Source: Odontocerum albicorne (Eukaryota > Arthropoda > Insecta > Trichoptera > Odontoceridae). From it: 64,000 nt of DNA. The notes below the pieces were generated by a model, which was not told where the DNA came from, did not search any database, and saw only the letters and a list, made by a program, of their open reading frames with translations. Positions 2,683 to 62,419 of the stretch are shown here, piece by piece. A program made the translations under genes and the position numbers. The first letter of the stretch is position 1; every line of letters begins with the position of its first letter. The stretch covers positions 992,001-1,056,000 of the forward strand of contig OX463838.1 in the NCBI GenBank assembly GCA_949825065.1, given 5' to 3'.

Positions 2683-3300
2683 ATACATTTGATTGTAATT
2701 TATTTTTATCAAACACTGTTTATTCCACTTTTTTGTAACGGTATAACCCTGCCGGTTTCAAGGCTTTCACCTCGTCTTCAGGGGAGCACAAACAAGACTA
2801 AATGCTGTTCGAACTGGTACCGATATACACGCTTCAACGGTTGGGGGGTGAGGGAGGCATGGGACGATTTCGGCCAAGAGCGGAGAGATTTTTGGGATAT
2901 AACATTTCACCAGATGTTCGGATCGACGCACTGACTTAGAAATGTCTAGGGCCTCTAATCTGTCCAATTTATTTCCGTTACTACTGATATGTAAGAATTT
3001 GGCATCATCGATAGAAAAAGTATGGTTTTCACGGTGACAATGATTAGTCATTTCAGAATAAATTAGAGGATTTGTTAAGGCGGATTTGTGTTCACGAAAT
3101 CTCTTTTCAAAAGATCTACCAGTTCGAACAGCATTTAGTTTTGTTTGTGCTCCCCTGAAGATGAGGTGAAAGCCTTGAAACCGGTAGGGTTATACCGTTA
3201 CAAAAAAGTAGAATAAACAGTGTTTGATAAAAATAAATTATAATGCCTTTAAACCTCCACAACGTTAATACCTTAACTATAAACAACATATACATTTGAT
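2683..3300. mobile_element. Penelope-derived element P1 with inverted arms
   Basis: The element spans 2694-3289 (596 bp) and is flanked by an exact 11-bp duplication ATACATTTGAT (2683-2693, 3290-3300). About 124 bp at each end are inverted copies of each other (2694-2817 and 3119-3243), containing AACCGGTAGGGTTATACCGT. A further 46-bp tail (to 3289) is present on the right only. Between the arms is a GIY-YIG endonuclease fragment. Sister copies are at 30671-30926, 48349-48606 and 56921-57535. The variable 10-13-bp duplications fit target-primed insertion of Penelope-like elements. Confidence 0.85.
2935..3155 (-). pseudogene. GIY-YIG endonuclease fragment of a Penelope-like element
   Basis: Minus-strand reading from about 3155 gives KLNAVRTGRSFEKRFREHKS, then ALTNPLIYSEMTNHCHRENH, then a stretch ending LDRLEALDIS. 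This is the second half of the GIY-YIG domain (the RSFEKRFREH Arg helix and the ENHTFS / LE-E-I block). The GIY and YIG strands and the whole RT are absent. The ORF at 21775-22401 has the same block order (FEKRVKEH, ENNHSFD, LDNLEILEFKKS), which supports the assignment. Confidence 0.8.
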
Positions 3301-29294: not shown

Positions 29295-29510
29295 CAGGGG
29301 TCGGCAAACTTTTTTCGCTAAGGGCCAGATCGTAAAAATTTTAGGGTCGACGGGCCAGGAAGCAAACTCGAGAATATTTATATAGGTAATTCTACTTATG
29401 TAGCAAAAAAAACGTTTACCTTTTTTATTGGGCGATGATAATATTTGTGCACATTTTGCTGACACAAAAAAAAACGAATGAAATATTTATATTTATTAAT
29501 TAAGGTATTA
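29295..29510. mobile_element. hAT element left end only
   Basis: CAGGGGTCGGCAAACTTTTT at 29295 is a hAT-type terminus, close to the CAGTGGTCGGCAAACTTATT end at 31610. The rest is cut off by mariner M2 at 29511, and nothing hAT-like follows M2. Confidence 0.6.
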
Positions 29511-30370
29511 TACGAGGCATATCCAGAAAGTAAGTGTACTGAATTTTTGTAGGTTGCAATTTTTTTTATTTAAACAAAAAAATTACGTGGTTACCGTAGT
29601 ACATACTATATGTAAGCTATTTTTCGACATAGTCGCCATTCCTCTCAATGCAGGTGGTGAAGCGGGGTATCAACTTTTTGATGCCTTCCTCGAAGTAGTT
29701 TCCCGCCAACCCCTCCGTCCACTTCTCCACCGTTTCCTTTACCTTCTCGTCAGTTGAAAACCTTTTTCCACCCATGTGCAGCTTCAGGGAGGTAAAGAGA
29801 TAGTAATCTGACGGTGCTAGGTCAGGGGAATGCGCGGGATGGTTCAGGACATACCATTTAAACGAGGCGAGCAGTTCCGTCTGGCATTGTCGTGCAACAG
29901 GCAGACTCCCTTTGTCAGCATGCCTCTCCTCTTGTTCTGAATCGCCCTCCGGAATTTTTTAGGGTCTCACAGTATCTTGCAGAATTGATGGTTTCCCCTT
30001 GAGGCATATATTCAATTAAAATTATGCCTTGACAGTCCCAAAACACGGATGCCAGGATTTTCTTGGCTGAAATTGTGGTTTTGAACTTTTTGGCGGAGGG
30101 TGAAGAGGTGTGACGCCACTGTTGAGACTGCCTTTTGGTTTCAGGCGTGTAGTGTGCAACCCAAGTATCATCTCCAGTAACGATGGAGCGGAGAAATTCA
30201 TCTCCATGGAGTTTGCAGCGCCTCAAAAACTCTTGCCCGGCCTCCACTCGATTCAACTTGGCGGGAGATGGGATTGACATTTTTCACGAAACGTGTTGTC
30301 GCGTCGACACTTCTCAACGTACTGACCACGAACCGGTCTCGTTGCGGAGGGGAAGGGTCAGGCTACACGG
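29511..30370 (-). mobile_element. mariner M2, one end missing
   Basis: The TACGAGGCATATCCAGAAAG end is at 29511. The other terminus is lost after GGGTCAGGCTACACGG at 30370 (about 75 bp missing). Transposase frame 30280-29915 on the minus strand has the GDDTW first catalytic block and IILIEYMPQGETINSARYCE. The HDN block is shortened as in M1. Dead copy. Confidence 0.9.
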
Positions 30371-30554: not shown

Positions 30555-31022
30555 ATTATTAAAAAAATTTAAAACAATGACTGTAATTTATTATTACTAC
30601 TGCTTTTTGTATCTTCTTGTTAGTTTAAGATAAAGTTTTGTATTATTATATTTGTCAATAATTTTAAGTATTTGTAATTTATTTTTACCAAACACTGTTT
30701 ATTCCACTTTTTTGTAACGGTATAACCCTACCGGTTTCAAGGCTTTCACCTCATCTTCAGGGGAGCACAAACAAGTATTTGTTTGTGCTCCCCTGAAGGT
30801 GAGGTGAAAGCCTTGAAACCGGTAGGGTTATACCGTTACAAAAAAGTGGAATAAACAGTGTTTGATAAAACAAATTACAATGTCTTTAAACCTCCACAAT
30901 GTTAATGCCTTAACTATAAACAACATAATTTTAAGTACTTGTATAACCTGTCAAATGTTCATTTGTATATGAAGACACGGTTGTGTCGTTAATTAAATAA
31001 AAATAAAATATAATTAGAAATG
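30555..31022 (+). mobile_element. LINE 3' end (family L), interrupted by P2
   Basis: ACAATGACTGTAATTTATTA...TAAGATAAAGTTTTG...GTCAATAATTTTAAGTA, then a 256-bp insertion, then AATTTTAAGTACTTGTATAA...TGTGTCGTTAATTAAATAAA. The uninterrupted relative at 44063-44245 is the empty site. The (AATA)n-type end suggests a non-LTR 3' terminus. No ORF. Confidence 0.75.
30660..30937. mobile_element. Penelope-derived element P2 (palindromic, no internal region)
   Basis: The element is 30671-30926 (256 bp). The 11-bp duplication AATTTTAAGTA lies at 30660-30670 and 30927-30937. It is two inverted arms back to back (GGTATAACCCTACCGGTTTC ... GAAACCGGTAGGGTTATACC) plus the right-hand tail AACGTTAATGCC-type sequence ending AACAACAT. 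There is no GIY-YIG fragment between the arms. The empty site is present at about 44155-44175. Confidence 0.9.
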
Positions 31023-31601
31023 TAAATAAAAGCAAACAAGAAAAATTTGATTTGAATTATTATCATATGTTAAATCTTACCTTATTAATAAAAATACGAG
31101 TAGAAGCATCCCTTATTTAAGTTTGTTTACCTCAAGTAATAAAAAACGTTAGTTGACAAAATTGCCTAATTTTATCAACTCAGTGTAATTTTAAGTTTTT
31201 ATTGAAATCAAAGATTGCGACCTCGATGTTGAATTAAAATTAAGATGAAATGCGATTGTTTAAATCTTAAATATGTCTGACTTTTAAACTTTTCCATGAT
31301 TTGAGTTCAAACCGGCGTACTAACTATCAAAGGTCAATAAACTTATTCATAATACCCGTTACCGGCTATGCACTAATCAGTTATTGACCTGAGGCCAAAG
31401 AATACTTTACCCTGTCTGTGTTTAGATGCAAACGTAACTATGTCGTTGTATTAATTATTTTGCAATCGATAAAGTTTGGCCCAATTATGTTATTTCTTTA
31501 ATTTATTGGCAAAAATAGCACTTATTGCGCTGTTGACCTTGTTATCCACAGCAATACGCCTTACCATATGTTTTAATATCTTCAAAATATATATATCTGT
31601 A
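31023..31601. other. non-coding stretch
   Basis: AT-rich, no feature recognised. Confidence 0.4.
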
Positions 31602-33354
31602 CCCTAGAGCAGTGGTCGGCAAACTTATTAGCCAAAGAGCCAAATATGTACATTACAACGATTAAAAAAAAATTTGAGAGCCAAATCTGTTTATTATTTT
31701 GCAAACCTTTATTATAATTTTAGCACTTCATTAAATTACGGGTACACTGGATAAAACTTGATTTCGTACTTAATAAACATTTTATTCTTTGATAAAAAAT
31801 ATTATGTCCTTTAGGAATCCATAAATTTAAATCATGACAATGACTGACAAATACTTAATGCGAACAATGTCCTTGCATCTCCTTGGAAAGTTTAAGTAAG
31901 TCAGGTTTGTATGTTTTTATTCTTAATTTTAGGCACGATTCCTGGTTCTCATCAATAAGACGACTTCTCAGTTTACTCTTGATAAAGTTCATGCTTGAAA
32001 ACGATTGTTCGCATGAATATGTAGAACCGAAAAGTTTTTTCAACTGATCATAAGAGTCAGGTATATTATATTATTCCAGGCGTTGAAGATGATCATGTCT
32101 CCCTTCTCCAGGTATTTCGAAGCAGACCACTTGTGTTGTGAACTAAGCTCACATTTGTTCTTCTCCAATATTTCCAAATCAACACAAAGACATTCAAATT
32201 AAGAGCTCCATATTTCCTTGTCCAGCAATTGTATTTCAAAGTTACCAATGTCAATGCCAAAAGGAGAAAATTTCAAACCTGTTATCGTAGCATTAAGAGG
32301 GTGGTTAACGAATGCTAAGGTCGCTCTGCTGTTTTTAAATTCCTGAAACCTGCTGAAAAATGCTTCCCTCATATTTAAAATGGTTGTTTTGAAAAAGTGT
32401 TTGTCAATAGATGAATTATTTTCTTGACGATGCTTCAGCAGACTCGGAAAGTGAAACAATGTTTGCCTTTCAAAATCTTGAGCAAAAAGGGATAATTGGT
32501 TTTCGAATGAAATGACTTCTTCTAACATCGAAAAAATTGTGTTTCCTCTCTTCACACTCCATTTAACTAAAAATTCTTTGAATTGTCGATGATTAAGAGC
32601 TTTAGCTTAAATGGAGTTGATAATCGTAATCACCAATTCCATAACTTTACAAATTTCTTCTGGAAATGTCTGCGCACAAAGCGCTTCTTGATGAATGATG
32701 CAATGGTAAGAAAGTATCTCGTGATTAATTTTTTCTTTCAAAATAGCAACAAACCCCTTTCTTACGCCGGTCATACTTTTGGCCCCGTCTGTTGAAATCG
32801 ACATAATTTTATCGAGAGGAATATGATGTTTATCCATACATTCAATTACAGCATTTGCGATATCCTCTCCGCGCGTCTGCCCTTTGAGTGGCAATAATCC
32901 TAAAAGTCCTTCTTTAGGACCTGTATGAGAAATAAATCTTACAAAAAGCGAAACTTGCGCTGTATCATTTATGTCACAAGACTCGTCAACTGCTATTGAT
33001 AAAGCCGAAACCAATTTCAGCTCTTCGATTTGCTGGATGGTTATATTCGAAGGCATTTTAATTGTTCTATCTTTCATTGTTTTGGCAGACAATGGTAACT
33101 CTTAATTTTTTTTAAATATCTGCTTTGTTCTTAAAATGCCGAAATAGCTTTTCGGATGCCTTGGCTAACGCCAACCAGACTTGTTGAAACGCGCGAGTCT
33201 CCCCCGCGCCGCGTACCTCGCAGTTGACACCCGACCGATATCATCAACGCGTCTTGCGCGCTTGCCCGTGGATATTTGTGCCAGAGCCGCACTTAAGGGG
33301 CCAAAGAGCCGCATGCGGTTCCGGAGCCGCACTTTGCCGACCTCTGCCCTAGAG
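31602..33354 (-). mobile_element. hAT element 1 (CAGTGGTCGGCAAAC)
   Basis: The element is 31610-33346 (1737 bp) with ends CAGTGGTCGGCAAACTT / ACTTTGCCGACCTCTG and a perfect 8-bp duplication CCCTAGAG at 31602-31609 and 33347-33354. It carries a decayed transposase on the minus strand. The right subterminal 230 bp are GC-rich and include GAGCCGCATGCGG words also seen in the hAT at 55831. The target octamer is the tip of a palindromic MITE. Confidence 0.95.
31855..33110 (-). pseudogene. hAT transposase (GTF2IRD2/EPM2AIP1-like group)
   Basis: Pieces in order: 33092-32607 has KLVSALSIAVDESCDINDTA (first acidic motif), then GLLPLKGQTRGEDIA, MSISTDGAKSMTGVRKGFVA (second motif) and YHCIIHQEALCAQ (the conserved C-H-x-x-H box). 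32555-32199 covers the insertion region. 32043-31855 has KLFGSTYSCEQSFSSMNFIK and SKLRSRLIDENQESCLKL, the hATC dimerisation domain. Separated by stops or shifts. The N-terminal BED finger is missing. Host proteins such as GTF2IRD2 contain related domains, but the TIRs and TSD make this a transposon remnant. Confidence 0.85.
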
Positions 33355-33480
33355 GATAAACCACGGAGGTCACTTTGCACCCTAGCGGATAAACGTCATA
33401 TGCGTCATACATGAATTGTATGATGCAACGTCGTTTATACTCTGGGGTAAAATGTGACTTCCGCGGTTTATCCTCTAGGG
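33347..33480. mobile_element. palindromic MITE with both tips hit by hAT elements
   Basis: CCCTAGAGGATAAACCACGG at the left and CCGCGGTTTATCCTCTAGGG at the right are inverted, with roughly 48-bp arms. Removing the two hAT insertions restores GTA-CCCTAGAGG...CCTCTAGGG-TAC, so this was a small element with inverted repeats, probably TA-flanked. Confidence 0.85.
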
Positions 33481-34558
33481 CAGTGCTCCGCAACCGGTGT
33501 GCCGTGGCACACTGGTGTGCCGTGAGCCGGATACAGGTGTGCCGCGGTCAAATTCAATGTATTTGACATTTTACAATTTTTATTATGTATTTAATACACA
33601 ATGACAAATTATTTTTCATAATATTGTCTATTTTACAAAATGTAATATAGAATAATTATTATAACTAAATAATTTTTCAATGGTCCCCCAGCGCCTGGTG
33701 CCAACTGTTGAAAACTGCGTAGTGTGCTTTGTACACACCATGGCCGCACCAAATTAGTCATAGACAAAGAAAAATGACCCTTATGCGCGTCGCTGAAGAC
33801 TCATGCGCATGCGTTATACTACATTTGCAGGCGTTACATCACGTTCACTCGTCCGTCATTACTGTCGTGTGCAGAGCTGTCACTATTTTAACAACACAAA
33901 GTTAAATAAACAAGTTTCTACCATTAACGATAATTACTATTAATTGTGTTGCTGAATTGTGTGTGGTTAGCGTTCTTCGTGTGATACACATTTAGTTTTA
34001 TACCCCTTTAAATATGGATACATTTTACGTAGAAAAGATCCGTCTTCACGTACAGATGATGAAGAACCCAGCACAAGTGTTACAAAAAAACCAAAGAAGA
34101 TAGTGAAAAGAAAGTACAACGAAGACTACATTAAATATGGATTCTCGTGGTGTGGTGACGAAACGGCTCCAAAGCCACAGTGCATATTTATGTGAGCAAA
34201 GTTTTCAACTCTTGTATTAATTAAAAATGATAAGCGGCCATGCTTAAAAGGTCTTGACCGAGAACTTCGGGTTGCGCTGTCAAAAATCGAGCCGATTATA
34301 AAACTTTTGTGTTCATTGAAACAAGCGCAGGTATCACATTAATTAATTATTATTTTATAATAATTATTAAGATTGCGTAAAAATAAATATGTTATAGTTT
34401 TATATATGTATACTTTTCAAATAAAAAACAAAAATTTATTGTAAAATTTGTGTATCAATTTAATACCTATATATTTTAGCTTTTGGTGTGCCGCGGAATT
34501 CTAGGAAGAATTTTGGTGTGTCGTAGGTGAGAACAGATTGCGGAGCACTGCTCTAGGG
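33473..34558 (+). mobile_element. hAT element 2 (CAGTGCTCCGCAACC family), long copy
   Basis: The element is 33481-34550 (1070 bp), TIR CAGTGCTCCGCAACC / TTGCGGAGCACTG (outermost bases CAGTGCTCCGCAA conserved). It has a perfect 8-bp duplication CTCTAGGG at 33473-33480 and 34551-34558. Its outer parts correspond, inverted, to the short MITE at 719-1141. The middle carries transposase termini. Confidence 0.95.
34014..34342 (+). pseudogene. hAT transposase N- and C-terminal ends fused by internal deletion
   Basis: From ATG 34014 shifted frames read a leader, then KRKYNEDYIKYGFSWCGDET and APKPQC, the start of a BED-type zinc finger. After a stop it reads CLKGLDRELRVALSKIEPII, then KLLCSLKQAQVSH and a stop at 34342, which is the extreme C-terminus of ZBED/SCAND3-like hAT transposases. 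The catalytic core is deleted. Confidence 0.7.
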
Positions 34559-35670
34559 TACATACGAATATAATATATGTACTAATTTCGACTATTGAAT
34601 TATCTTAAATCCGTTCAAACGATTGATTTACGCCTCTCAATCGCTTTATTCGCCATTCGGGTTTTCCCCAACTGGCACGATCACTAACTGGGTAATCCCA
34701 TTTACGGTTTTATATTTTTGTATCTTACGCATGTGTCTTTAAAAAAAACAAATCAAACAACAATGGAAAAAGCATAATGTTCTTAAAAAATGTGTCTTCT
34801 ATGTGCCTGATTTACTACAGCACACCAACGAAAGCGAATTAATTTAAGCCTCCGTCGAGCGCAATACAAATCCTAACACGTTCGGGCGCAACTCATCTGT
34901 GAGATTAAAAATTAAATTTACGCTTAGGCTTAAGGGAAAGCTTATCAAACTGAACTTTTGACTCAAACATGATTATATAACATTTGTACATTTCTTTGCA
35001 CTTTTCAATAGCAAAATTTTTAATTTTCTCATATTGTTTTTTCTTAAAATAGAAGATAACTAGTTTACAGCATTCTCAGTCTTTTGTTGGCAGCTTATCA
35101 ACACAACTAATGCGATTCAGTAACATCACCGTTTTTTTCGGTCATTTAACACCCACAATAGGTTTGTAAAAAAGATTTAGCACAATAAAAAGTATGCGGA
35201 ATTGATTGTCACATCTCCATAAGGAAGGTGTTCATGTGACGAAAATAAAACCAATAACTTAACATTAGAGAACACCATGATAGCACTTTTTCAAACATTA
35301 TTTAGAATGTAAAATTCGAATTCACTTGTGATCATAAACCGTCTTCACAAAAACAAAAGGGAGTAATCAAAATATGATTAGAAAGTTATTTTTTTGTCAG
35401 GAAGCTACTATAAGCCTCACCTCTTTGTCGGTAAACCTCGCCCATTGGTACAAAAAAAAACTAGTTACCTCATCTCACAGATTAGATGCGCCCGCCCAAG
35501 GGTTAAATTCACTTAGGTAATACTCTAAGCTCGAAGGTAAGTCCTTGGCTCGAAGTTGAATGACGCAAAAAAAGAGAACTGTGAGATAAAAAGCTCGAAA
35601 TAGATTTTTCTAAAGAACGTCACCAACCAACGCCATTTGCTGCAGAGCAAATGGATATTATAGTATTTCT
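34559..35670. other. long non-coding stretch
   Basis: No element or exon recognised on either strand. Confidence 0.45.
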
Positions 35671-41861: not shown

Positions 41862-42887
41862 CTGTAGACCAGTGGTCCCCAACCCCCGGGCCGCGGCCCG
41901 GTACCGGGCCGTGGACCAAATGGTACTGGGCCGCGCAAGGGCCTGCTTAAAAATCAAAATTACTTTTGAAAAATCGAACATACCCAATAAAACTTAATTA
42001 TAAGGTAGCCTTAAAACTATGTTCTAGACAACAACTCTGCCGGTGTTCTGGATTAGAGTCATGGCGGAATACCCTGAGATTGCCACCACAGCACTAAAAT
42101 CCCTATTGCCATTTCCGACATCCTATCTATGTGAAGCGGGGTTTTCTGCAGTGACAGCAACCAAAACAAAACAAAGAAATAAACTGGGCATAAGCAAGAC
42201 ACTTCGGGTGTCACAATCTCCTATTACCCCCAGATGGAACCATCTCGTTTCAATGAAGCAAGCTCAGGGTTCTCATTGATTTAGCATTAAGTTAAAATAT
42301 TAAATCTGTTTTTATTCATTTTTAAGGGGTAACTGTATTTTATTTTTAAGGCATGTTAAATCACGATTCAATTAAAAATATTAAATCAAAACATATAAAA
42401 CTTCAACATCAAAACTTTTAAAGAAAATAGATAAATAACTTTCAAGTGAATATACTATATCTGCAAGATATCAGAATAACATTAAAATCCCGATATTAAA
42501 CCCTAAGCATTCTCAAAATTCTTTTCTCTATCTTGGAAAAAAATACTTTCAACCTTCCGTTGAACCTTAAAAATATTGAAAATACCCATGAATCCAAAAG
42601 AAAATTAAAAAATTATCTGAAACTTAATAATCCTTCATTGTTATTATATATTTTTTCATCATTTTTCCCAAAAACCTTGTGTTTTCTCTACTATTATTTG
42701 TCACTATAACTTATGTACTACAGTTGTAAATTTTATTATTATATATTGTACAAATATATTGTTCTTAAATTAAAAAAAAAAACTACATTCAATGTGTCCC
42801 CCCTCCCTCCCCCAGTGGGCCGTGGTAAAATTATGAAACGTTGACCGGTCCGCGGCGACAAAAAGGTTGGGGACCACTGCTGTAGAC
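41862..42887 (+). mobile_element. hAT element 3 (CAGTGGTCCCCAACC)
   Basis: The element is 41870-42879 (1010 bp) with TIR CAGTGGTCCCCAACC / GGTTGGGGACCACTG (15 of 15) and a perfect 8-bp duplication CTGTAGAC at 41862-41869 and 42880-42887. It keeps the transposase C-terminus only, so it is an internally deleted derivative. Confidence 0.95.
42043..42279 (+). pseudogene. hAT transposase C-terminal dimerisation domain
   Basis: It reads FWIRVMAEYPEIATTALKSL, LPFPTSYLCEAGFSAVTATK and TKQRNKLGISKTLRVSQSPI, ending MKQAQGSH-stop. This is the complete hATC end typical of SCAND3/ZBED5-like elements; FPTSYLCEAGFSAV is the core. The frame has no start of its own (upstream parts deleted). Confidence 0.9.
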
Positions 42888-44771: not shown

Positions 44772-45728
44772 TACGAGGCGTATCCAGAAAGTAAGTGTAC
44801 TGAGGCTCTCACGACCGGATGGATTTTATTTTCGACATGTTGGCTACACTTCCGTGTAGCCTGACCCTTCCCCTCCGCAACGAGACTGGTTCGAGGTCAG
44901 TACGTTGAGAAGTGTCGACGCGACAACACGTTTTGTGAAAAATGTCAAACCAATCTCCCGCCAAGTGCGAAATTTTGTAAAAAGGCAATAGTTTTTGAGG
45001 CGCTGCAAACTCCATGGAGATGAATTTCTCCGCTCCATCGTTACTCGATATGAAACTTGGGTTGCACACTACACGCCTGAAACCAAAAGGCAGTCTCAAC
45101 AGTGGCGTCACACTTCTTCACCCTCCGCCAAAAAGTTCAAAACCACAATTTCAGCCAAGAAAATCATGGCATTCGTGTTTTGGGACTGTCAAGGCATAAT
45201 TTTAATTGAATATATGCCTCAAGGGGAGACCATCAACTCTGCAAGATACTGTGAGATCCTAAAAAAAATGCGGAGGGCGATTCAGAACAAGAGGAGAGGC
45301 ATGCTGACAAAGGGAGTCTGCCTGCTGCACGACAATGCAAGACCACACACGGACAACGCCACGAAGGAACTGCTCGCCTCGTTTAAATGGGATGTCCTGA
45401 ACCATCCCGCGCATTCCCCTGACCTAGCACCTTCAGATTACTATCTCTTTACCTCCCTGAAGCTGCACATGGGTGGAAAAAGATTTTCAACCGACGAGGA
45501 GGTAAATGAGGAGGTGGAGAAGTGGACGGAGGGGTTGGCGGGAAACTACTTCGAGGAAGGCATCAAAAAGTTGATACCCCGCTTCACCACCTGCATTGAG
45601 AGGAATGGCGACTATGTCGAAAAATAGCTTACATATGTACTACGGTAACCACGTAATTTTTTTGTTTAAATAAAAAAAATTGTAACCTACAAAAATTCAG
45701 TACACTTAGTTTCTGGATATGCCTCGTA
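44772..45728 (+). mobile_element. mariner M3
   Basis: Both termini are present: TACGAGGCGTATCCAGAAAG at 44772 and TTTCTGGATATGCCTCGTA ending 45728. Length 957 bp, about 300 less than a full mariner; the missing part is the transposase N-terminus. The subterminal hairpin GGCTACACTTCCGTGTAGCC lies next to the deletion. Confidence 0.95.
44995..45627 (+). pseudogene. mariner transposase catalytic domain, first Asp lost
   Basis: The open frame is 210 codons. SIVTRYETWVAHYTPE replaces the GDETW block, so the first catalytic Asp is Tyr. CLLHDNARPHTDNATK and HSPDLAPSDYYLF keep the second and third Asp. The C-terminus RFTTCIERNGDYVEK-stop is complete. The N-terminal helix-turn-helix domain (about 110-130 residues) is absent. 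Confidence 0.9.
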
Positions 45729-48189: not shown

Positions 48190-48780
48190 GTAATGCATTG
48201 TCACCCCGCTTATTATATTCAGTGCACGCATTTCGACAGCATATATTCGGCTCCTTTCAGTATTTTTCCACGTCCACATTTCACATTCATAGATCAAAGT
48301 TGGTACTAGAATACTTCATAGTTGACTATCATGATACATTTTGATACTTTGTAATTTATTTTTAACAAACACTGTTTATTCCACTTTTTTATGACGGTAT
48401 AACCCTACCGGTTTCAAGGCTTTCACCTCATCTTCAGGGGAGCGTAAACAAGACAAGTCTTGTTTACGCTCCCCTGAAGATGAGGTGAAAGCCTTGAAAC
48501 CGGTAGGGTTATACCGTCATAAAAAAGTGGAATAAACAGTGTTTGTTAAAAATAAATTACAATGTCTTTAAACCTCCACAACGTTAATGCCTTAACTATA
48601 AACAACATTTTGATACTGTTGTCCGATTAGAGTATAGCCTATGTTTTAGTGCCCCGTTGACTTTGTTTTTTATCGCTACATGTCGTTCGATATCTCTCGT
48701 AACTCTTCCGTCAACCGAGCAAATACTTCCCAAATAACAGGATTCCTAAACTTGTTCTTATCTTTCAATGTTCACCTATA
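48190..48780 (-). pseudogene. non-LTR family-B RT fragment split by P3
   Basis: 48195-48348 and 48618-48780 are the two halves, minus strand, of a family-B copy (compare 17820-17960 and 26390-26640). The P3 insertion falls in CAGTATCAAAATCT (coding strand). An (AAT)n run follows at 48780. Confidence 0.65.
48338..48617. mobile_element. Penelope-derived element P3
   Basis: The element is 48349-48606 (258 bp) and the 11-bp duplication ATTTTGATACT is at 48338-48348 and 48607-48617. It has two inverted arms (GACGGTATAACCCTACCGGT / ACCGGTAGGGTTATACCGTC) meeting near 48458 at GACAAGTC, plus the right-hand tail ending AACAAC. It is close to P2 in length and sequence. Confidence 0.9.
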
Positions 48781-50466: not shown

Positions 50467-51233
50467 TACGAGGCGTATCTAGAAAGTAAGTGTACTGAGG
50501 CTCTCACGACCGGATGGATTTTATTTTAGACATGTTGGCTACACTTCCGTGTAGCCTGACCCTTCCCCTCCGCAACGAGACCGGTTCGAGGTCAGTACGT
50601 TGAGATGTGTCGACGCGACAACACGTTTCGTGAAAAATGTCAAACCAATCTCCCGCCAAGTGCGAAATTTTGTAAAAAGGCAAGAGTTTTTGAGGCGCAT
50701 CAAAATCTATGGAGATGAATTTCTCCGCTCCATCGTTACTGGAGATGAAACTTGGGTTGCACACTACACGCCTGAAACCAAAAGGCAGTCTCAACAGTGG
50801 CGTCACACCTCTTCACCCTCCACCAAAAAGTTCAAAACCACAATTTCAGCCAAGAAAATCATGGCATCCGTGTTTCGGGACTGTCAAGGCATAATTTTAA
50901 TTGAATATATGCCTCAAGGGGAGACCATCAACTCTGCAAGATACTGTGATCTCTTTACCTCCTTGAAGCTGCACATGGGTGGAAAAAGGTTTCAACCGAC
51001 GAGGAGGTAAAGGAGGAGGTGGAGAAGTGGACGGAGGGGTTGGCGGGAAACTACTTCGAGGAAGGCATCAAAAAGTTGATACCCCGCTTCACCACCTGCA
51101 TTGAGAGGAATGGCGACTATGTCGAAAAATAGCTTACATATGTACTACGGTAACCACGTAATTTTTTTGTTTAAATAAAAAAAAATGTAACCTACAAAAA
51201 ATCAGTACACTTACTTTCTGGATATGCCTCGTA
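50467..51233 (+). mobile_element. mariner M4, doubly deleted
   Basis: TACGAGGCGTATCTAGAAAG at 50467, CTTTCTGGATATGCCTCGTA ending 51233; 767 bp. It lacks the N-terminal domain like M3 and M5, and also about 190 bp of the catalytic domain. Confidence 0.95.
50600..51131 (+). pseudogene. mariner transposase remnant
   Basis: FLRSIVTGDETWVAHYTPET keeps the first catalytic Asp. The frame then runs from INSARYC straight into DLFTSLKLHMGGKRF, deleting the HDNARPH and SPDLAPSDY blocks, i.e. the second and third Asp. A shift after KRF lets only pieces of EEVKEEVEKWTEGLAGNYFE follow to the stop near 51131. Confidence 0.9.
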
Positions 51234-53301: not shown

Positions 53302-53977
53302 TTAGGTGTTAACATAAGTTGTGTCCGTTTTTTGTCAAATTAAAAATGAGCACCAAAAGTAAAACAAAATGGTAAAGGTTATACGTATTATTTTATTTGA
53401 TTACAAGCCTTCAAAATGGAATATCAAGTAGACGAAAGTGAACATTTTCGACACCTGTTCGCGTTCAATCGAGGGAATAAAACTGCCAAAGCTGCTCGCG
53501 ATATTTGCGAAGGTTTTTGCGTTTCAAAGACGGTAATTTCGACCTGAAAGACATGGAGCGTTCATGAATAATATGGTTTAAGCGGTCCTCATCGAAGTCT
53601 ACTGGTCATCCGGAACGCTCCATGTCTTTCAGGTCAAATAACCGTCTTTGAAACCCAAAAAACCATCGAAGAGCTATCCTTTAAGTCATAGCATCTTCCC
53701 GTACACTTCGCAAATATCGCGAGCAGCTTCAGCACCTTCATTCCTTCGATTGAACGCGAACAGAAGGAGGTGTCGAAAATGATCACTTTCGTTTACATGA
53801 CATTCCATTTTGAAGGCTTGTAATCAAATAAAATAATATATGTAACGTAAAAGCAAACACAATACTTGTAGAGCAGAAAGTTTTCTTTCGAATGACGTAT
53901 AACATTTACCATTTTGTTTCACTTTTGGTGCTCATTTTTAAATTGAAAAAAAAAACGGACACAACTTATGTTAACAT
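53302..53977. mobile_element. head-to-head mariner 5' halves (fold-back)
   Basis: The left half (53305-53560) runs from TTAGGTGTTAACATAAGTTG through MEYQVDESEHFRHLFAFNRG and NKTAKAARDICE. The right half (53975-53590) is the same 5' region on the other strand (MECHVNESDHFRHLLLFAFN). They meet near 53560-53640, where GACATGGAGCGTTC faces GAACGCTCCATGTC. Both outer ends are left-type termini and there is no right half of the transposon. A single half copy is at 23020-23290. Confidence 0.85.
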
Positions 53978-54299: not shown

Positions 54300-55022
54300 A
54301 ATATATATTTTTTTTTTATCCACTTTGCACGGATTTCTCCTGTTACACAAAGAGGGTTTGCTTCTAGCGTTAGCTTATTCGTTAGGAATAATATCAGCCA
54401 GGATTCTTCTCATACTGCTAGACGGTACCGAGAATATATCAACCGTGTCATTCAGTTGGTTCAATATCTCTATACCACGCGTGACTGAGTGTTTAGCCAT
54501 GATATTCGTCCTGTAAGTTGGTATGTAGAACAGAGGGTGATTCCTTGCACGGATATATTTATTGGGTACATATAAACTTAGTGCTTCTAGAATCGCGGGA
54601 CAGTTAAAGCAACCTTGGAAGACCTTTATTAGGAATATCGCAATGGATTCTTGCCTTCTTGTTTCAAGGCTTCTATAGTTACACACCGTGAGAAGTTCGG
54701 CATGGTGAGCATATTTTGGGTAATCGCCCTTTGTTCTGTACCATAGATATCTGAGGAATTTTTTTTGTATTTGTTCTATATTGTTTTTATATTTGAGCTG
54801 GTGAGGAGCCCAAACCGTAGATGCATATTCTAATTTGGTTCTAATTAGATAATTATATAAGTTTCGGAGGATATCGGTGCTGTTAAATTCTCTTGATATT
54901 CTCATTACAAAACCGAGTAGTTTGTAACAGTCCGATATCAAACGTGAGACATGGTTAACGAACGTGAGTCCGACATCGAAGGTTACGCCCAAATCCTTGA
55001 ATTCAGAAACTCTGTTCTACAT
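54300..55022 (-). pseudogene. non-LTR retrotransposon RT C-terminus (CR1/jockey-like)
   Basis: The open minus frame from about 55022 reads NRVSEFKDLGVTFDVGLTFV, NHVSRLISDCYKLLGFVMRI, NLYNYLIRTKLEYASTVWAP and QIQKKFLRYLWYRT, then LETRRQESIAIFLIKVFQG and HPLFYIPTYRTNIMAKHSVT, ending RRILADIIPNE-stop at 54375. KDLGVTFD...H...LG and LEYAS-VW-P are the standard region behind the palm in CR1/jockey ORFs. The minus-strand tail ends in A10 (poly-T at 54308). 5'-truncated. Confidence 0.9.
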
Positions 55023-56907: not shown

Positions 56908-57548
56908 TCCTTTATTTTATATTATTTAAAGTTAAGGCATTAATATTGTGGCGGTTTAAAGACATTATAATTTGTTTTTATAAAACACTGTTTATTTCAC
57001 TTTTTATAACGGTATAATTCTACCGGTTTCAAGGCTTTCACCTCATCTTCATGGGAGCACAAAGAAGACTGAATTACGTTCGAACTGTGTGTTAAGGCGG
57101 ATTTAGTGAACACAAATCCGCCTTAAAAAATCCTCGAATTTATTCTGAATAATCATTTTCACCGTGAAAACCATACATTTTCTATTGATGATGCCAAATT
57201 TGTACATATCAGTAGTAACGAAAATAAATTGGACAGATTAGACGCCCTAAAAATTTCTAAGTCAGTGAGTGCATCGAGGTGAACATCTAGCAAACGCATA
57301 TATTCCAATAATCTCGGCGCTGCTCGCTTAGGTTGTCTCCTCCCTCCCTTCACCCATAGTCCCCAACACGAATGTTTACCGTTAGAAGCGTGTATGTCGG
57401 TACAAGTTCGAAAATAATTCAGTCTTGTTTCTGCTCCCTTGATGAAGAAGTGAAAGCCTTGAAACCTATAGGGTAGGGTTATACCGTTACAAAAAAGTGG
57501 AATAAATAGTGTTTGATAAAAAACAAATAACAATGTCCTTTATTTTAT
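56908..57548. mobile_element. Penelope-derived element P4 with GIY-YIG fragment
   Basis: The element is 56921-57535 (615 bp) and the 13-bp duplication TCCTTTATTTTAT is at 56908-56920 and 57536-57548. Inverted arms carry TATAATTCTACCGGTTTCAA on the left and AAACCTATAGGGTAGGGTTA on the right. Here the GTTAAGGCATTAATATTGTG tail is on the left arm. The core 57100-57280 is a plus-strand GIY-YIG remnant (ENHTFSIDDAKFVHIS-like, KLDRLDALKISKS). Confidence 0.85.
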
Positions 57549-61465: not shown

Positions 61466-62419
61466 TACGAGGCATATCCAGAAAGTAAGTGTACTGAATT
61501 TTTGTAGATTACAATTTTTTTTATTTAAACAAAAAAATTACGTGGTTACCGTAGTACATATGTGAGCTATTTTTCGACATAGTCGTCATTCCTCTCAATG
61601 CAGGTGGTGAAGCGGGGTATCAACTTTTTGATGCCTTCCTCGAAGTAGTTTCCCGCCAACTCCTTCGTCCACTTCTCCACCTCCTCCTTTACCTCCTCGT
61701 CGGTTGAAAACCTTTTTCCACCCATGTGCCGCTTCAGGGAGGTAAAGAGATAGTCTGAAGGTGCTAGGTCAGGGGAATGCGCGGGATGGTTCAGGACATC
61801 CCATTTAAACGAGGCGAGCAGTTCCTTCGTGGCGTTGGCCGTGTGTGGTCTGGCATTTTCGTGCAGCAGGCAGACTCCCTTTGTCAGCATGCCTCTCCTC
61901 TTGTTCTGAATCACCCTCCGCAATTTTTTTAGGGTCTCACAGTATCTTGCAGAGTTGATGGTCTCCCCTTGAGGCATATATTCAATTAAAATTATGCCTT
62001 GACAGTCCCAAAACACGGATGCCATGATTTTCTTGGCTGAAATTGTGGTTTTGAACTTTATGGCGGAGGGTGAAGAGGTGTGACGCCACTGTTGAGACTG
62101 CCTTTTGGTTTCAGGCGTGTAGTGTGCAACCCAAGTTTCATCTCCAGTAACGATGGAGCGGAGAAATTCATCTCCATGGAGTTTGCAGCGCCTCAAAAAC
62201 TCTTGCCTTTTTACAAAATTTCGCACTTGGCGGGAGATTGGGTTGACATTTTTCACGAGACGTGTTGTCGCGTCGACACTTCTCAACGTACTGACCTCGA
62301 ACCGGTCTCGTTGCGGAGGGGAAGGGTCAGGCTACACGAAAGTGTAGCCAACATGTCGAAAATAAAATCCATCCGGTCGTGAGAGCCTCAGTACACTTAC
62401 TTTCTGGATACGCCTCGTA
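61466..62419 (-). mobile_element. mariner M5
   Basis: TACGAGGCATATCCAGAAAG at 61466 and TTTCTGGATACGCCTCGTAC at the other end; 954 bp. It has the same N-terminal deletion as M3, with the same short junction, which suggests that M3, M4 and M5 descend from one deleted copy mobilised in trans. Confidence 0.95.
61567..62286 (-). pseudogene. mariner transposase catalytic domain, second Asp changed
   Basis: 239 open codons: VRNFVKRQEFLRRCKLHGDE, FLRSIVTGDETWVAHYTPET (first Asp kept), CLLHENARPHTANATK (the usual HDN is HEN, so the second Asp is Glu), HSPDLAPSDYLF (third Asp kept, one residue shorter than in M3), C-terminus RFTTCIERNDDYVEK-stop. The DNA-binding domain is missing. Long frame but not expected to be active. 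Confidence 0.9.

Follow-up and report, generated by a model that had tools for sequence, protein, structure and literature searches.

Buster-type hAT transposons are described as inserting at a central TA. In Drosophila, the element Mar duplicates targets of the form nnnTAnnn (PMC3517528), and in human cells TA was found in 26,871 of 27,985 TcBuster insertions (PMC3499496). In the latter study, TcBuster was no more attracted to fossils of related transposons than other transposons were (PMC3499496). On the protein level, a tree places a GTF2IRD2-like protein near Mar (PMC3517528), and on the DNA level GCGGCTC is a motif described for Buster2 (PMC4298943). Among elements with CCC tips, TRC from Tribolium starts CCCTAGTAGC and is accompanied by 2-bp repeats (PMC1636069). 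Here we compare these systems with a nested locus at 31602-34558 of the window (the whole 64-kb stretch of DNA that was analysed), where three elements - a 134-bp palindrome and one hAT per tip - are inserted into one another.

Results

The window has a G+C content of 37% and is rich in transposon remains. ORFs at 29915-30280, 44995-45627, 50600-51010 and 61567-62286 give four closely similar translations, and the one of them that was scanned (44995-45627) matches Pfam Transposase_1, i.e. a mariner-type transposase. A 205-aa ORF at 54375-54992 has two unnamed matches.

At the centre of the nested locus lies the palindromic miniature element (134 bp, 33347-33480, assigned to neither strand) with tips CCCTAGAGGATAAACC on both strands. 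Each of its tips carries a hAT with an exact 8-bp duplication, and the coordinates and octamers given in the initial annotation proved exact to the base. The left target duplication of hAT 1 (31602-31609, plus strand) and its right counterpart (33347-33354, plus strand), which is at the same time the left tip of the palindromic element, both read CCCTAGAG. Likewise, hAT 2 is bordered on its left by the right tip of the palindromic element (33473-33480, plus strand) and on its right by 34551-34558 (plus strand), both reading CTCTAGGG. The two octamers are indeed reverse complements, as had been noticed, and represent one target read on opposite strands. This removes the surprise that was initially seen in the same target being chosen twice: a palindrome has the same sequence at both tips, and the mirror relation of the octamers needs no cause for that very reason.

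When both hATs are removed, the palindromic element is left with the flanks ..ATCTGTA / TACATAC.., which hold a TA duplication of its own (left TA at 31600-31601, right TA at 34559-34560, neither assigned a strand), and it is the oldest of the three nested elements. The palindrome is imperfect, with 62-nt arms that are 82% complementary and extend a few bases into the adjoining hATs, and the tip motif recurs in weaker form from about position 34 of each arm. In single-stranded form its DNA folds from end to end (-44.4 kcal/mol, z -12.1), a stability attained by none of 200 shuffles. Within the 64-kb window, BLAST found no second copy. As for its origin, the CCC tips and the 2-bp duplication would fit TRC/CACTA, and the TA alone would fit Tc1/mariner; we know of no Tc1/mariner tip that matches it. 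Tips of piggyBac start CCCTAGA and thus look similar, but we reject a piggyBac origin because the flanks (TGTA / TACA) lack the TTAA duplication. The 15-base tip of the element was matched by 12 stretches in public viral contigs, all 12 with an exact match of 15-17 bases only, and since the next 45 bases agree with the palindromic element at just 6-13 positions in each case, these matches are to be regarded as chance. In public prokaryote genome contigs the tip pattern had no matches.

The element at the left tip, hAT 1 (31610-33346, 1737 bp), is a degenerate, Buster-like copy with the tips CAGTGGTCGGCAAA and CAGAGGTCGGCAAA, whose terminal bases match at 12 of 13 positions between the ends, and the heptamer GCGGCTC occurs three times near one end. 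Its duplication, CCCTAGAG, is exact on both sides and fits nnnTAnnn. It is placed on the minus strand by a transposase fragment of 161 aa (32607-33092, minus strand), which has relatives named ZBED8, GTF2IRD2 and FAM200C. The six best of the 234 matches to this fragment are 83-88% identical over 91-100% of its length and are named ZBED8-like, GTF2IRD2-like or uncharacterized; against Pfam DUF4371 the fragment scores 22 bits, below the curated cut-off of 32.1. The best matches come from Myotis, Hydra, Trichonephila and Parasteatoda, and such close similarity to bat, Hydra and spider proteins suggests horizontal transfer. Public contigs gave nothing in addition: 17 viral stretches contain a hAT 1-type tip, none of which is preceded by a central TA or has a matching partner end; a protein scan of viral contigs with the fragment yielded three candidates, none confirmed as relatives; and none of 13 candidates from prokaryote genome contigs was confirmed with the Hydra relative of the fragment (P0002).

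At the right tip, hAT 2 (33481-34550, 1070 bp) is a non-autonomous, Buster-like element with CAGTGCTCCGCAA at both ends (13 of 13 terminal bases matching). The plus strand, to which we assign it, holds a coding remnant of 74 aa (33971-34192, plus strand) with relatives named SCAND3 or BED: 11 of its 15 matches are SCAND3, one is a BED zinc finger and three are unnamed, and a Pfam search with the remnant gave no match. SCAND3 is presumably a member of the Buster clade. A short copy of hAT 2 at 719-1141, 95-97% identical, has the duplication ATCTACAG, which fits nnnTAnnn, as does CTCTAGGG at the locus; in public viral contigs the hAT 2 tip had no matches. A third Buster-like family is found at 41870-42879, with CAGTGGTCCCCAACC at both ends and the exact duplication CTGTAGAC; a second copy of it is absent from the window, and the one 83-aa fragment of it that was scanned has no match in Pfam.

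Though they are different families, hAT 1 and hAT 2 both look like members of the Buster clade, an assignment based on names, tips and targets rather than on a tree. This contradicts the earlier description of the two as unrelated: the families differ, yet tips and duplications fit the Buster clade in both cases, and the names of the protein relatives would be in keeping with it.

The whole window was scanned for elements of the form CA[GA]...[CT]TG up to 4.5 kb in length that have an exact 8-bp duplication and agree at 9 or more of 13 terminal bases. Four complete hATs were found, compared with a total of four chance elements in 20 first-order Markov shuffles. In all four, positions 4-5 of the duplication are TA (ATCTACAG, CCCTAGAG, CTCTAGGG, CTGTAGAC), and BLAST added two one-ended relatives of hAT 1 with a central TA in the octamer before them, ACCTATAC before 29295 (a weak match, E 0.015) and ATGTATAC before 55831. 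As central TA makes up 8.4% of positions in the background, its presence at four out of four sites outside the locus would be expected by chance about 5 times in 100,000. The tip pattern matched 14 places, namely the eight ends of the four complete elements, the one-ended relative at 29295 and five others (22035 and 24716, and on the minus strand 55014, 41586 and 14114), which we took as chance matches and left out of the counts; one of these five (55014) has a central TA and the other four do not. The initial annotation had proposed that a CTAG core draws the transposases. The part of this proposal that stands is a role for the sequence around the central TA, in line with the Buster consensus nnnTAnnn and with the other sites in the window, whereas CTAG itself is not needed: the four target sites outside the locus are centred on CTAC, GTAG, GTAT and CTAT. 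MER1/Charlie elements probably favour the motif NTCTAGAN; a literature search for it found nothing related, and the titles and abstracts retrieved do not state a preference of hATs for the tips of MITEs.

A target weight matrix built from both strands of the four sites outside the locus ranks the two tip octamers joint first among the 14 TA octamers of the palindromic element and its surroundings, the tie being given by construction for a mirror pair, and places them in the top 1.7% of the 5,344 TA octamers of the window. Among 2,000 matrices made from four random TA octamers, 2.2% give the tips both the first rank and such a top placing. The matrix is thin, with one of its four sites from the family of hAT 2 and two one-ended, and in leave-one-out form it puts the tips first in only two of four cases, while their place within the window varies from 0.5% to 4.6%. 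For two insertions into the palindromic element, the chance that both tips are taken is 1% if all TAs are equal, 7-12% if CTAG is favoured 5-10 fold and 26% with the matrix. Since this case was selected for being neat, two hit tips are no strong surprise.

Discussion

The nesting is very probably explained by the known target preference of Buster elements acting on a palindromic host element that offers one good target twice. Accordingly worded as a sequence of events, a palindromic miniature element would have inserted at a TA, and each of its tips would then have offered one copy of the octamer (CCCTAGAG, or CTCTAGGG on the other strand), which should suit Buster-type transposases by its central TA and nearly palindromic surround. 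Later, a different Buster-type hAT would have inserted at either tip and duplicated the octamer there. Directly observed are the anatomy of the locus, its duplications and, at the window's other Buster-like sites, the central TA. Presumably, both hATs came in through the staggered cut that hAT transposases usually make and independently of each other, and the palindrome most likely matters only as the supplier of two copies of one good target. The arrangement is ordinary nesting, neat yet predicted by a target preference that was already known.

Could the tips have been hit for structure rather than sequence, with a hairpin or cruciform of the palindromic element attracting the transposases, as the initial annotation had it? 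The full-length fold of the element as single-stranded DNA (z -12.1) and the presence of both hATs precisely there speak for this idea, but other inverted repeats in the window do not bear it out. A scan for arms of at least 40 nt, no more than 600 nt apart - which would overlook repeats whose arms a long insert has separated - gave eight pairs, one being the palindromic element and the other seven lying at five places (three overlap, 53328-53953). None of the four complete hATs lies in any of these seven pairs, which are all better matched than the palindromic element (85-98% vs 82%) and in five cases have longer arms. This control is weak in that the best TA octamer in the arms of the other repeats scores 5.4, as opposed to 6.6 for the tips of the palindromic element: with no arm octamer reaching the tip score, sequence preference predicts empty repeats as well, so that a hairpin would not be enough, albeit compatible with a helping role. 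Nor do the targets outside fold in any remarkable way. When the flanks of the two outside complete copies are joined, 23% or more of random window segments are as stable (RNA parameters), and by the same measure the two target sites at the palindromic element are likewise unremarkable (22% and 17%). Based on the empty inverted repeats and the unremarkable folding of the targets, we reject hairpin attraction as a sufficient cause and consider it a very improbable account of the locus.

Even less credible, to our minds, is a scenario in which hAT 1, palindrome and hAT 2 form one composite element that is mobile or has been duplicated as a unit. This compound has no second copy in the window (BLAST), its outer TA duplication is consistent with the palindromic element having inserted on its own, and the two hATs are each bordered by an exact 8-bp duplication of their own, which leaves such a unit highly improbable. 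Another option is that the palindromic element serves, through sequence preference alone, as a landing pad throughout the genome, with Buster elements at the tips of many copies. While the matrix does assign two near-best targets to each copy, BLAST detects no further copy of this element within the window, and we give this account little credence. The related generalisation, that tips of the palindromic family are landing pads for Buster elements genome-wide and that copies, each with two near-ideal targets, collect tip insertions, strikes us as doubtful; if true, such insertions would immobilise the palindromic element and divert hATs from other sequence. Taken together, the reading we prefer remains that of a known preference meeting two copies of one target.

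Inverted repeats at 30683-30870, 48339-48572, 2692-3244 and 57020-57471 are long, well matched and have one sequence in common (88-98% identical). They make up a fold-back family, represented at no fewer than four places in the window.

With target preference and palindromic host as the explanation, the locus is a clean fossil of that preference: the same octamer served two different Buster-type families, once on either strand of the host element. Mainly it holds a caution, as insertions at mirror-image tips catch the eye although a palindromic host and a shared preference are enough to produce them. Were other copies found to be hit repeatedly at their tips, the palindromic element family would provide a natural assay of hAT target choice.

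How do the three elements compare with known systems? The palindromic element is like TRC (CACTA superfamily) in its CCC tips and its 2-bp duplication, both of which are found here, although the likeness to TRC is confined to seven leading bases (CCCTAG and one more position aside). It also differs from TRC/CACTA in that no transposase was found; a TRC/CACTA assignment would imply an autonomous partner with a TRC transposase and the same tips (CCCTAGAGGATAAAC). With miniature elements of the Tc1/mariner type it has the TA duplication in common, as seen in its single copy. Turning to the hATs, the published tips of Buster1 and Buster2 differ from those of hAT 1 and hAT 2, both of which are degenerate copies here. 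The relatives of the hAT 1 protein bear GTF2IRD2-like names, and it is a protein of this name that has been placed near the Buster element Mar (PMC3517528). Both hATs are like the Buster elements TcBuster, Mar and Buster1/Buster2 in combining CAG..CTG tips with 8-bp duplications that have TA at their centre.
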